From positions 62,001 through 126,000 of the forward strand of contig NZ_WWDL01000003.1 in assembly GCF_009848505.1 (NCBI RefSeq): DNA of 64,000 bases, in the 5' to 3' direction. A model generated the notes under the pieces. It was given only the letters and a program-made list of their open reading frames with translations. It did not search any database and was not told the DNA's origin. Made by a program: the position numbers and the translations under genes. The stretch is from Muricoccus harenae (lineage in GTDB: Bacteria > Pseudomonadota > Alphaproteobacteria > Acetobacterales > Acetobacteraceae). Positions 36,727 to 51,456 of this stretch are shown in pieces (position 1 is the first letter of the stretch; each line of letters starts with the position of its first letter).

Positions 36727-37665
36727 TCAGGCCTCGCGGCCGAGCATGGCCATCAGCTCGCGCCATTCGCGCTTGGAGAGGCCGCTGCCGGGCTGGTCCG
36801 GAGGCTGGCCGTCGAGCAGGCCACGCACCACGGAGAGCATCTGGGCCGACAGGGTGACGGCGCCCATGCGGTAATCGCGGAAGGCCTCGTGGACCAGGGG
36901 GACCCAGGCCTTCACCGTGTCGAGCATGGCATCGGCATAGACGCGGATCTCGTACTGGGCATGGGCATCGGCGCGGAGGGAGAGGAAGTTCAGGAGGTTG
37001 TGGAGGTCCGACTTCCAGTACCACTGGGTATAGGCGTTCAGCGTCAGGTTCATGCGGGCGAGTTCGCGGGCCAGGCCGCGACGGGTTTCATCAATGACGC
37101 GGCCATCGGCGTCCTCGTTCAGCATGTCCAGGTAATGGTCGTAGTTGCGGGTGGCGTCCTCGCGCAGCAGGTCGAGCACGCGGGCGGCCTCCTCACCCTG
37201 CAAGACGCTGCCGCGCCCCTGGCGGTTGACAGCCGACTGGGCCGCAAGCTGGTCCCCGGCGGGCAGGTAGAACTCGCGATCCAGGATAGAGTAGCGGGCC
37301 GAGTACTCGTTCACATTCGCCATGCGATGGCGGATCCACTGGCGCGCCACGAAGATGGGCAGCTTCACATGGTACTTGATCTCGCACATCTCGAAGGGCG
37401 TGGAGTGGCGGTGGCGCATGAGGTAGCGGATCAGGCCGCGATCCTCGTTCGCGGCCTTAGTGCCGCGGCCATAGGAGACGCGGGCGGCCTGCACCACGGC
37501 AGCATCGTCGCCCATGTAGTCGACCACGCGGACGAAGCCGTGGTCGAGCACGGGAATGGGGCGGAAGAGGATCTGCTCCAGCCCTGGGGAGACAGGGCGG
37601 CGGGTCTCGTGGCGCTGGGCCTCGGCCTCGGCCAGCTCCAGTCGCTGCGTCTCGGTCAGTTCCAT
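36727..37665 (-). CDS. thyX: Flavin-dependent thymidylate synthase
   Basis: A 312-residue enzyme that methylates dUMP to dTMP with methylene-tetrahydrofolate and FAD/NADPH. The ThyX signature is intact: [15 protein letters not shown] at about residues 112-126, preceded by [10 protein letters not shown]. Downstream, [20 protein letters not shown] supplies further FAD and dUMP contacts. No thyA is in this window, in keeping with ThyX-dependent alphaproteobacteria. It is divergent from the tmRNA gene. Confidence 0.95.
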
Positions 37666-37744
37666 CGGGCCCCCCTTGGTCGCGAGGGGTTTACCGGGGG
37701 CGCGTCGCCAGCGCCACGGGCTAGCAATCGGCCGTCAAATGCCC

Positions 37745-37750
37745 TATATG
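37745..37750 (+). promoter_or_regulatory. Possible -10 box of ssrA
   Basis: TATATG lies a few bases before the start of the tmRNA precursor region. A weak -35-like TAGCAA is 17 bases upstream. Suggestive only. Confidence 0.3.
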
Positions 37751-37756
37751 GGTCGG

Positions 37757-38090
37757 TGCCGCCTTCGGGCGGCTATGGCGATAAACGGCATGTGGAATAA
37801 GCGTTGTGGACCCGGGGGCAGTACCCGGCGCCTCCACCATCCTTCCCCCGGGCTTATCGGTCCGGTGCCCCCTTCCAGGGGCGGGAGCATGGGGGCGAAA
37901 CAGGCTCGACACGCGCGGTAAAGACCTGTCTTTTGCCCGGCATTGTACCGCCGTTATCGGGCTAAATCACAAGTGCCAACGATAATGGTCGCGAGACCAT
38001 GGCGCTCGCTGCCTAGAGATAGGTAAGCGCCGTCCGGGGGGAACGGGGCAACAGAATCCCCCCACCTTGCTTCGCTGCCCCTCTTGCCAT
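37757..38090 (+). ncRNA. ssrA: Transfer-messenger RNA, circularly permuted (two-piece) alphaproteobacterial type
   Basis: Rescues stalled ribosomes and tags the nascent protein for proteolysis. The gene order is permuted. The acceptor piece comes first and ends with a T-arm (CCGGG...CCCGG) and GCCTCC-A-CCA at 37830-37839. After a 51-base spacer the coding piece starts with GGGGGC (37891), which pairs with GCCTCC. The tag reading frame at 37975-38016 encodes ANDNGRETMALAA and a TAG stop inside a hairpin (GGCGCT 38001 with AGCGCC 38026). An H-type pseudoknot follows: GGGGGG 38036 with CCCCCC 38058, and GGGGCA 38045 with TGCCCC 38076. The outer ends are approximate. Confidence 0.92.
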
Positions 38091-38184
38091 GTCTTGGCTC
38101 GCTCCTATGCCGCGCGGGGGGGATGTCATATGTTGCGGCGGATCGAACTCCCGTGACCGGACCAGCCTTGGATAAGATTTGCGC

Positions 38185-38712
38185 ATGAGCGAGCAAGCGC
38201 CGCCCCCCGAAAGCCTGCTGCCTTACGACCGCTGGACCGAGGAGGCCATGCGGAACGTGGCCCTTCGCGCGCTGGAATTCGCGGCAAAGAACGGGCTGCC
38301 AGGGGAGCATCATTTCTACCTCACCTTCCGTACGGACCATCCGGGCACCAAGGTTCCGGGCCATCTGAAGGCCCGCTACCCGCAGGAGATGACCATCGTC
38401 CTGCAGCACCAGTTCTGGGACCTGACGGTGGACCGGACGGAGCAGATGGTCTCCGTCGGCCTGTCCTTCGGAGGGGTGGCGGCTTCGCTGGTGATCCCCT
38501 TCGCGGCGCTGGTGGCCTTCTGGGACCCGCATGTGCGCGTGGGCCTGCGCTTCGGCGAGGTGGTCATGCCGGATGCAGAGGGCGACGAGGTGCCGGAGCC
38601 GGCGGAGCAGGAGGACCCGCCCGCGCCGCCGGAGGCGGCCGGGACTAAGTCCGATGCGCCGGCGCAGGTGGTGAGCCTCGACGCCTTTCGCCGGCGTCCG
38701 ACGCGGGAATAG
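38185..38712 (+). CDS. sspB: SspB, ClpXP adaptor protein (alphaproteobacterial type)
   Basis: A 175-residue adaptor that binds ssrA-tagged proteins and tethers them to ClpX. The folded domain (about 10-125) includes FYLTFRTDHPGTKVPGHLKARYPQEMTIVLQHQFWDL and VSLSFGG-like strands (here VGLSFGGVAASLVIPF). An acidic, Pro/Ala-rich linker of about 40 residues leads to the short basic C-terminal VVSLDAFRRRPTRE, the position of the ClpX-binding tail. It lies about 95 bases after ssrA on the same strand. ATG 38185 is chosen over an in-frame TTG two codons upstream. Confidence 0.93.
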   Translation: MSEQAPPPESLLPYDRWTEEAMRNVALRALEFAAKNGLPGEHHFYLTFRTDHPGTKVPGHLKARYPQEMTIVLQHQFWDLTVDRTEQMVSVGLSFGGVAASLVIPFAALVAFWDPHVRVGLRFGEVVMPDAEGDEVPEPAEQEDPPAPPEAAGTKSDAPAQVVSLDAFRRRPTRE

Positions 38713-38968
38713 GCAGCCGGCGCTCCCTGCCGGCTTGGCGCCTGGCCCGTCGGGCCGGGTGCCCTCTTCGCCGGGCCGGAGCGTGTTTTCATCTGGGTTC
38801 TGCCTGCTGGCGTGCGGCTCTGCGCCGCGCTAACACAGCCCGACAACCCGTTCGTGCGGCCGGAGCCGCGCCCCAAGCCCGCGAGCCCCTGGCCGCTGGA
38901 GAGGGGTCGGCCGGGCCCCGCCTCCCCCGCCTTCCGCCTGGCGGGGCCAGAATCCGGAGAGCGCCCCC

Positions 38969-40708
38969 GTGAGCTCCAATATGCTTGATGCCGTCCAGCC
39001 CCCGATCCCGGTGGGCGCCACCCCTGTCGCGACGCATGACGGCGCCGAGGCCGATGCCGGCACGCCCGTCTCCCAGCGCAGCGCGGGCTTCCTGTTCAGC
39101 CCGATGTTCCCGCTGGCGGAGGACACCACCCCCTATCGCAAGCTCGACATCCAGGGCGTCTCCACCATCGAGGTGGAGGGCAAGCGCATCCTGAAGATCA
39201 AGCCGGAGACGCTGGAGCAGCTCGCCTTCCAGGCCTGCAAGGATGTGTCCCACCTGCTGCGCCCTGGGCATCTGCAGCAGCTTGCCAATATCCTAAAGGA
39301 CCCCGAGGCCTCGGCGAATGACCGCTTCGTGGCGCTGGACCTGCTGAAGAACGCGAATATCGCGGCCGGCGGGAAGCTGCCCATGTGCCAGGACACCGGC
39401 ACCGCCATCGTCTTCGGCAAGAAGGGCCAGCGCGTCTGGGTGGAAGGTGACGAGGAGGAGGCGCTCTCCTACGGCGTCCACCGGACCTATACCGAGACGA
39501 ATCTGCGCTACTCGCAGATGGCACCGCTGACGATGTTCGACGAGGTGAACACCGGCAACAACCTGCCGGTGCAGTTCGACATCTACGCCTCGCCCGGAGA
39601 CTACCACGCCGACGAGTTCAACCTGCAGTTCATCCTCAAGGGCGGCGGCAGCGCGAACAAGACCTTCCTGTTCCAGCAGACGCGCGCCGTGCTGAACAAG
39701 CCGAAGCTGCTCGCCTTCCTGGAGGAGAAGATCAAGACGCTGGGGACGAGCGCCTGCCCGCCCTATCACCTGTCCATCGTGATCGGCGGCACCTCGGCCG
39801 AGACGAACCTCAAGACGGTGAAGATGGCCTCCACCCGCTACTACGACACGCTGCCGGAGAAGGGCAGCAAGGCGGGCCATGCCTTCCGCGACCGGGAGCT
39901 GGAGGCCGAGGTCCATAAGCTGACGCAGAACCTGGGCATCGGCGCGCAGTTCGGCGGCAAGTATTTTTGCCATGACGTGCGGATCATCCGCCTGCCGCGG
40001 CACGGGGCCTCGCTGCCGATCGGCATCGGCGTGTCCTGCTCGGCGGACCGGCAGATCAAGGCGAAGATCACGCCGGAGGGCGTGTTCCTGGAGGAGCTGG
40101 AGCATGATCCGGCGCGCTTCCTGCCGGACCAGACGGAGGGCGTGCCCGAGGGCGGCGAGGTCGTTCGGATCGACCTGAACCGGCCGATGGACGAGATCCG
40201 CGCGGAGCTTTCCAGGCATCCCGTCTCCACCCGCGTGTCGCTGAACGGCACCATCGTGGTGGCGCGCGACATCGCGCATGCGAAGCTCAAGGAGCGGCTG
40301 GATTCCGGCGAAGGCATGCCGGACTACATCAAGAACCACCCGGTCTATTACGCGGGCCCGGCAAAGACGCCGGAGGGGATGCCCACGGGCTCCTTCGGCC
40401 CGACGACGGCGGGGCGCATGGACTCTTATGTGGGCGAGTTCCAGGCGGCTGGCGGATCGCTGGTGATGCTGGCCAAGGGCAACCGCTCCAAGGCGGTGAC
40501 GGAGAGCTGCAAAAAGAACGGCGGCTTCTATCTCGGCTCCGTCGGCGGGCCGGCGGCCCGGCTGGCGCAGGACTGCATCCGCAAGGTCGAGGTGCTGGAG
40601 TATCCGGAACTCGGCATGGAAGCCGTGTGGCGGATCGAGGTGGAGGATTTCCCCGCCTTCATCGTGGTCGACGACAAGGGCAACGACTTCTACGACGGGC
40701 TCGAGTAA
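38969..40708 (+). CDS. fumA: Fumarate hydratase, class I (4Fe-4S)
   Basis: A 579-residue oxygen-sensitive TCA-cycle enzyme interconverting fumarate and malate. The N-terminal alpha-type domain carries PMCQDTGTA and, further on, KYFCHDVRI and GVSCSADRQ, the cysteines for the cluster. The C-terminal beta domain has the swivel segment ([28 protein letters not shown]). The GTG start at 38969 has GGAGAG upstream; an ATG four codons later is possible. An unrelated class II fumarase lies 2.7 kb downstream. A clean stem-loop follows the stop. Confidence 0.94.
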
Positions 40709-51040: not shown

Positions 51041-51436
51041 CCAGACGGCCGGGCGACCGCTGCCAGTCCCGCAAGGGGCGGTGGAGGAAAGTCCGGGCTC
51101 CACGGGAAGACGGTGCCGGTTAACGACCGGCGGGGGCGACCCCAGGGACAGTGCCACAGAGAAGAGACCGCCCGAGCCGCCGAAAGGCGCCAAGGGCAAG
51201 GGTGAAACGGTGGGGTAAGAGCCCACCGCGCCCCTGGCGACAGGGGCGGCACGGCAAACCCCACCGGGAGCAAGGCCGAATAGGGATGGCCGGAGAGGAT
51301 TCGCGAGGATCCGTCGCCAGGGGCTTCCCGCCCCGCCATCCGGGTTGGCCGCGAGAAGTCCCTGGCAACAGGGACTCCAGAGGAATGGTCGCCTGGTCCG
51401 CAAGGGCCGACAGAACCCGGCTTACAGGCCGTCTGG
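51041..51436 (+). ncRNA. rnpB: RNase P RNA
   Basis: Catalytic RNA of the bacterial A type that removes tRNA 5' leaders. The ends CCAGACGGCC and GGCCGTCTGG close the P1 helix. Conserved cores are readable: GGAGGAAAGTCCGGGCTCC near 51081, AGGGTGAAACGGTGGGGTAAG near 51198, the AGAGGAATGG segment near 51379, and ACAGAACCCGGCTTACAGG near 51410. It has its own promoter and is followed by two T-runs. It lies just upstream of the dcw cluster. Confidence 0.97.
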
Positions 51437-51456
51437 TATTTTTTTCCCCTTTTTTC
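51437..51456 (+). terminator. T-rich terminator of rnpB
   Basis: Two T-runs of 7 and 6 bases follow the closing arm of P1, separating rnpB from the dcw operon. Confidence 0.7.

Follow-up and report, generated by a model that had tools for sequence, protein, structure and literature searches.

In Muricoccus harenae (Alphaproteobacteria, Acetobacteraceae), the gene of a tmRNA (ssrA) lies immediately upstream of sspB, the gene of an adaptor expected to grip the tag that this RNA encodes. The question raised by such a locus is whether tag and reader form a coupled unit, co-expressed and co-evolving, as suggested by the original prediction, or are linked in some looser way. The locus is carried by a stretch of 64,000 nucleotides of contig NZ_WWDL01000003.1, the whole of which is called here the window. 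The reading preferred, with a probability of about 85%, is that of an ordinary trans-translation locus made of linked partner genes rather than an obligate operon, and co-evolving at one tag-SspB position.

The two genes in the window

The ssrA gene of the window is an alphaproteobacterial permuted tmRNA gene (Table 1). Indeed, its match to the Rfam model alpha_tmRNA (RF01849) lies far above the gathering score of 50 and covers the full model (1-355) in a scan of the window, the permuted tmRNA model RF04321 matches positions 37777-38016, and ARAGORN calls a permuted tmRNA on the same strand with the tag ANDNGRETMALAA. The order of the parts is the permuted one, the acceptor piece with its CCA standing before the coding piece, and the tag frame ends with Ala-Ala. 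As read by eye, the CCA ends at 37839 and the coding piece begins with GGGGGCG near 37891, these first bases being able to pair with CGCCTCC in the acceptor piece. The product is predicted to be processed into two pieces and charged with alanine. The start first given for the locus, 37757, falls within the RNA match, whose first position is 37718, and the distance to sspB, first put at about 95 bases, is 118 nt from the end of the RF01849 match to the sspB ATG or 77 nt from the looser end called by ARAGORN. Some 13 kb downstream from ssrA, the window also encodes a class A RNase P RNA (51041-51440, + strand; RF00010, 295.6 bits).

The next ORF encodes an SspB of the alphaproteobacterial type, which reaches 146.4 bits against PF04386 for a cut-off of 27 and is the single SspB match in the 5.3 Mb draft genome of the strain. 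Its AlphaFold model (mean pLDDT 85.8) has Caulobacter and Agrobacterium SspB chains as best PDB matches, and its closest named relatives by sequence belong to Roseomonas and Pararoseomonas (81-86% identity). Against the NCBIfam equivalog NF008764 (enterobacterial ClpXP protease specificity-enhancing factor), the protein reaches 22.1 bits for a cut-off of 191 and is therefore not filed under this entry. A permuted tmRNA gene directly upstream of sspB, the starting point of the original prediction, is thus borne out by ARAGORN, RF01849, RF04321, and PF04386. The C-terminus of SspB is conserved as a VVSLDAFRKK-like end, which we take to be the ClpX-binding tail; partly on the strength of established tmRNA and SspB knowledge, the window SspB would bind both the ssrA tag and ClpX. 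The pair is flanked by a divergent thyX gene and by a fumarase gene. In NCBIfam, the product of the latter scores best against class I fumarate hydratase entries without reaching their equivalog cut-offs, and it exceeds those of TIGR00722 and TIGR00723.

Table 1. Features of the ssrA-sspB locus, in window coordinates
Feature	Position	Strand	Evidence
thyX, divergent upstream neighbour	36727..37665	-	PF02511; TIGR02170, 206.8 bits
ssrA, circularly permuted (two-piece) tmRNA gene	37718..38066	+	RF01849, 224.7 bits; ARAGORN tmRNA* 37747-38107
Acceptor-side (3') piece, encoded CCA at end	37777..37839	+	Sequence reading; RF04321 match start 37777; exact 5' end predicted
Coding (5') tmRNA piece	37891..38066	+	Sequence reading; end from RF01849; processing ends predicted
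Tag reading frame ANDNGRETMALAA (codons 37975-38013) and TAG stop (38014-38016)	37975..38016	+	ARAGORN; sequence
Weak candidate sspB promoter, TTGCCA-16 nt-TATGCC	38084..38111	+	Putative, read by eye; none found here by consensus scan
sspB, alphaproteobacterial type, 175 aa	38185..38712	+	PF04386, 9.2e-43; predicted fold matches Caulobacter SspB 2qas
Class I fumarase, downstream neighbour	38969..40708	+	PF05681 and PF05683; NCBIfam

Gene order in relatives and transcription of sspB

The ssrA-sspB neighbourhood is old, with the tmRNA gene upstream of sspB across the class. In a sample of 100 Acetobacteraceae genomes, SspB is detected in 96 and tmRNA in 97; all 96 SspB-bearing genomes, that of the window included, also have a tmRNA, and 82 carry both on one contig. 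In 80 of these 82, the tmRNA gene precedes sspB on one strand at a distance of at most 5.4 kb, and of at most 300 bp in 58, the distance being that separating the RNA match from the Pfam match; the pair is unlinked in the other two (G062, G095). In the class sample of 289 genomes, SspB is found in 253 and tmRNA in 266. Among the best 150 of the 253 SspB matches and the best 150 of the 266 tmRNA matches, on which the class linkage counts rest, 106 genomes have both, 98 of them on one contig; in 96 of these 98, the genes follow each other head to tail at 8 kb or less (79 at 300 bp or less), and the two other pairs are unlinked (G140, G363). The 14 family and eight class genomes in which the genes fall on different contigs are uninformative on linkage. 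A set of 80 named Acetobacteraceae loci overlaps the family sample in some of its genomes; here ARAGORN places a tmRNA upstream of sspB and in the same orientation in 70, and finds none in the other ten, a few of which lack the full upstream sequence. The order is beyond chance because it recurs in nearly all relatives carrying both genes on one contig, close relatives included. The original prediction would have been refuted by a lack of linkage among close relatives, which is not what they show. The linkage proposed at the outset is thereby supported class-wide, and the locus is an ordinary alphaproteobacterial trans-translation locus. No class-wide ssrA-sspB linkage is reported in the titles and abstract openings, mostly outside subscription papers, of the literature on SspB with ssrA or tmRNA and on permuted tmRNA. 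The gene order may be mentioned by Lessner et al. (2007).

Such an order may have been inherited neutrally, inside a larger conserved block made of thyX, ssrA, sspB, and fumarase, and in the absence of any functional coupling. This explanation deserves to be kept in mind as a minority reading: thyX-like ORFs lie near sspB in at least 57 of the 80 named loci and 57 of 149 class loci, and fumarase-like ORFs in at least 58 of 80 and 45 of 149 (minimum counts, with flanks of 1.5-4 kb), whereas ssrA adjoins sspB more often than these outer neighbours do (70/80 named loci), although the counts are not strictly comparable.

Linkage is also compatible with a single transcription unit, in which the sspB mRNA would come mainly from read-through from the ssrA promoter and be cut off at the tmRNA 3' end. 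Besides the conserved order and strand, two features speak for it. On the one hand, the only terminator-like site found at 37600-39050 of the window lies after sspB (38766), none being found between the two genes. On the other hand, the tmRNA 3' hairpin and the start of sspB are at most 50 nt apart in 11 of 109 measured loci (family plus class, some genomes being counted twice), and only 4 nt apart in one of them. Transcription of sspB in these short-gap loci seems to require read-through or else a promoter that extends into ssrA. A consensus promoter scan of 37600-39050 found no sigma-70 site, and the 38020-38200 segment folds less stably than its shuffles (z +2.17). The weak candidate promoter of Table 1 shares TCCTATGCC with loci L227 and L228. 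A leaderless start of sspB, suggested by a TAAGAT placed six bases ahead of the ATG, is not retained, because this element is not strictly conserved in L132 and L226-L228.

Against a single unit stands a promoter-like motif that sspB possesses in many relatives. When identical upstream regions are counted once, leaving 65 distinct Acetobacteraceae regions, CTA[AT]G occurs 18-55 nt before the sspB ATG in 23, and in 22 of these 23, hence 22 of the 65, it is accompanied by TT at -22/-21, a spacing that resembles that of -35 and -10 boxes. In 200 dinucleotide shuffles, at most six regions have CTA[AT]G and at most two have it with TT; CTA[AT]G was selected after a k-mer scan, the TT standing outside this selection. 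The motif is present in seven loci in which 0.56-1.7 kb separate the two genes (L008, L017, L135, L144-L147) and in L013, from a genome in which ssrA and sspB are unlinked; it goes with sspB because it is kept where other genes intervene and in this unlinked case. It is also carried by one of the 11 short-gap loci (L152). The window belongs to the 42 regions without CTA[AT]G at the usual distance. The motif may act as a promoter, judging from its sequence and placement.

Unrelated genes are moreover tolerated between ssrA and sspB, and the inserts of long-gap loci differ by lineage: a TetR-family regulator gene in R. rosea (L132), of the same genus as the window, a methyladenine glycosylase gene in L142 (both by Pfam), and similar glycosylase ORFs in L143-L148, these and the other inserts being named by eye. 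A strong terminator and a separate promoter between the genes had been put forward as evidence against coupling; no terminator was found in the window, whereas an own promoter-like motif is present in the family. A simple co-transcribed ssrA-sspB unit thus appears weakened in relatives, and read-through as the main source of sspB mRNA is rather unlikely. Linked partners remain the preferred description of ssrA and sspB, an obligate operon not being supported across the family.

Charge covariation between tag and adaptor

The tags mostly keep ANDN, whereas their middle and tail vary. The original prediction drew attention to the GRETM middle; the window's tag is also found in close relatives, so that this middle is not peculiar, and across the family the middle varies widely. 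The charge of tag residues at positions 5, 6, 7, and 8 was scanned against the charge of SspB columns. In a discovery set of 158 pairs of ANDN tag and SspB, the residue following ANDN (position 5) is anti-correlated with SspB residue 97 (r -0.43, max-statistic p 0.0043 over 56 columns, by trait simulation on the SspB tree), and the value is the same when residue 97 is left out of the tree (n=157, r -0.43, max-statistic p 0.006). This pair was fixed before turning to a hold-out of 88 additional loci, of which 69 yielded a tag and 65 combined an ANDN tag with SspB. Among 31 hold-out representatives below 75% identity, 30 of which share less than 85% identity with the discovery set as well, r reaches -0.71 and the eight pairs with both residues charged are all opposite (plain permutation). 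On a tree built without residue 97, r is -0.67 (n=40) and 0 of 3000 simulations are as extreme, under a fitted rate that hit its upper bound and hence a null close to plain permutation.

In the combined set, the correlation is -0.50 (n=195, 0/3000 tree simulations as extreme), the next column reaching -0.16. It includes 20 pairs of acidic tag and basic SspB, six of the reverse, and a single same-sign pair (L098), so that 26 of the 27 pairs with both residues charged are opposite. By a hand count on family labels, opposite pairs are spread over 19 families, seven of which add to those having such pairs in the discovery set, and the same-sign pair belongs to one. An uncharged residue 97 faces 15 of 35 acidic and five of 12 basic tags; conversely, in 21 pairs residue 97 is charged and the tag residue is not. 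The window itself is neutral, with Gly5 in the tag and Gly97 in SspB. In the SspB model, residue 97 lies in the turn joining strand 88-95 to strand 98-105. This turn has a weak alignment (E about 0.1) to the FGG turn of E. coli SspB; a physical contact between it and tag residue 5 is plausible.

A phylogenetic accident is an improbable source of this correlation: related species do share both states, the tree is that of the SspB gene and not of the species, the hold-out rate lies at its bound, and several families (e.g. f66, f67) are common to hold-out and discovery set, most hold-out loci coming from the same class sample, but opposite pairs occur in 19 family groups against one same-sign group, the swap is seen in both directions, and the pair was replicated in the hold-out, far ahead of the next best column. 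The co-evolution proposed between tag and adaptor is therefore supported, at one residue pair and by charge complementarity. Tag-5/SspB-97 covariation is unreported in the titles and abstract openings, mostly outside subscription papers, of the literature on SspB with ssrA or tmRNA.

None of tag positions 6, 7, and 8 had an opposite-charge SspB partner that remained significant after correction. The pair of tag position 7 and SspB 76, good in plain permutation (with p-values that may have been distorted by an invariant column giving undefined values), was rejected on the tree (p 0.25); the best column for this position, SspB 84, reached 0.058 on the tree. Tag position 8 shows a same-sign correlation with SspB 127 (p 0.042, uncorrected for the four positions). 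For the aspartate of AND, tested against 62 SspB columns with one sequence per lineage, the smallest p is 0.0075 and none survives.

The AND motif is kept in 102 of the 110 SspB-bearing class loci with a called tag, a set that retains two tags that look mis-called (L377, L386); 39 of the 149 class loci yielded no ARAGORN tag. By comparison, AND is kept in four of 12 SspB-less genomes that are at least 90% complete (p 5e-6 vs the SspB-bearing class loci), and in eight of 19 SspB-less tags at any completeness, 20 such genomes with a tmRNA match having been taken and one (G156) having yielded no tag. Small SspB-bearing genomes keep AND in 16 of 26 cases, a difference from the 12 SspB-less genomes of at least 90% completeness that is not significant (p 0.16). 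SspB-less genomes thus tend to lose the AND motif, with genome reduction as a confounding alternative.

Other tag variants were encountered. Altered heads (AKRD, AKSD, ANES, ANNK, ADDN, AEDN) occur in genomes without an SspB match (L174, L175, L178-L180, L189, L190), among which the tmRNAs of G181 and G372 are called one-piece. Long or odd ARAGORN tags of 15-31 residues are found where an SspB match is present (L200, L203, L204, L212, L219-L222, L224; in the class, L107, L126, L345, L383), and in many of them an internal A-N-x-N is retained close to the C-terminus, which would fit a roughly fixed distance from the SspB site to the ClpX end. In L104 (G234; 1344-1790 of the oriented locus), the tag ANDNAQFVAANDNFVVEGDIAIAA has the AND motif twice.

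Proposed working of the locus and comparison with known systems

In the proposed mechanism, the two-piece tmRNA from ssrA would add its tag to stalled proteins, the adaptor from the neighbouring sspB would grip the AND-containing first half of this tag, and SspB would deliver the tagged protein to ClpXP, which would read the LAA end. Read-through from ssrA would be possible at short gaps, whereas in many Acetobacteraceae sspB has its own promoter-like motif; tag position 5 and SspB residue 97 tend to opposite charges. Tag binding in the window species and a functional benefit of linkage are likewise suggested partly by established tmRNA and SspB knowledge. Charge-matched classes of tag and SspB (acidic 5-basic 97, basic-acidic, neutral-neutral) could moreover be set by a single contact, tight linkage keeping matched alleles together on interspecies exchange, a proposal that is speculative and on balance doubtful.

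The locus itself is standard, and the charge swap is its new and testable part. The comparison gives a testable rule for tag-adaptor matching, namely one charge pair, which, if true, could help to explain the variable middle of the tags and could aid the design of tag-adaptor pairs without cross-talk. It also indicates that a tmRNA gene and an adaptor gene can remain neighbours throughout a bacterial class, seemingly in the absence of an obligate operon.

Among the closest known systems is that of Caulobacter crescentus. Its two-piece tmRNA belongs to the same RNA family, RF01849 matching the control genome of Caulobacter vibrioides, and its SspB (2qas/2qaz) to the same adaptor family and fold, 2qas having a TM-score by target of 0.91 and 46% identity to the window SspB. 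The Caulobacter tag presumably differs from that of the window in its middle and end. Escherichia coli SspB, used as a control, belongs to the same Pfam family and has the same fold as the window SspB (1ox9, TM-score by target 0.63); among the matches listed, the non-alphaproteobacterial SspB chains have about 21-25% identity to the window SspB. The E. coli tmRNA is, as we take it, one-piece and not beside sspB. The E. coli tag AANDENYALAA (PMC8138137) contains AND, as does the window tag. In Sinorhizobium meliloti (CP090106.1), the window stretch matches in two pieces, on one strand and in the same order, the second reaching a gene annotated "SspB family protein", whereas the annotated neighbours on both sides differ from those of the window. 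A 12-residue tag of S. meliloti is reported to have been detected by mass spectrometry (PMC10117765).
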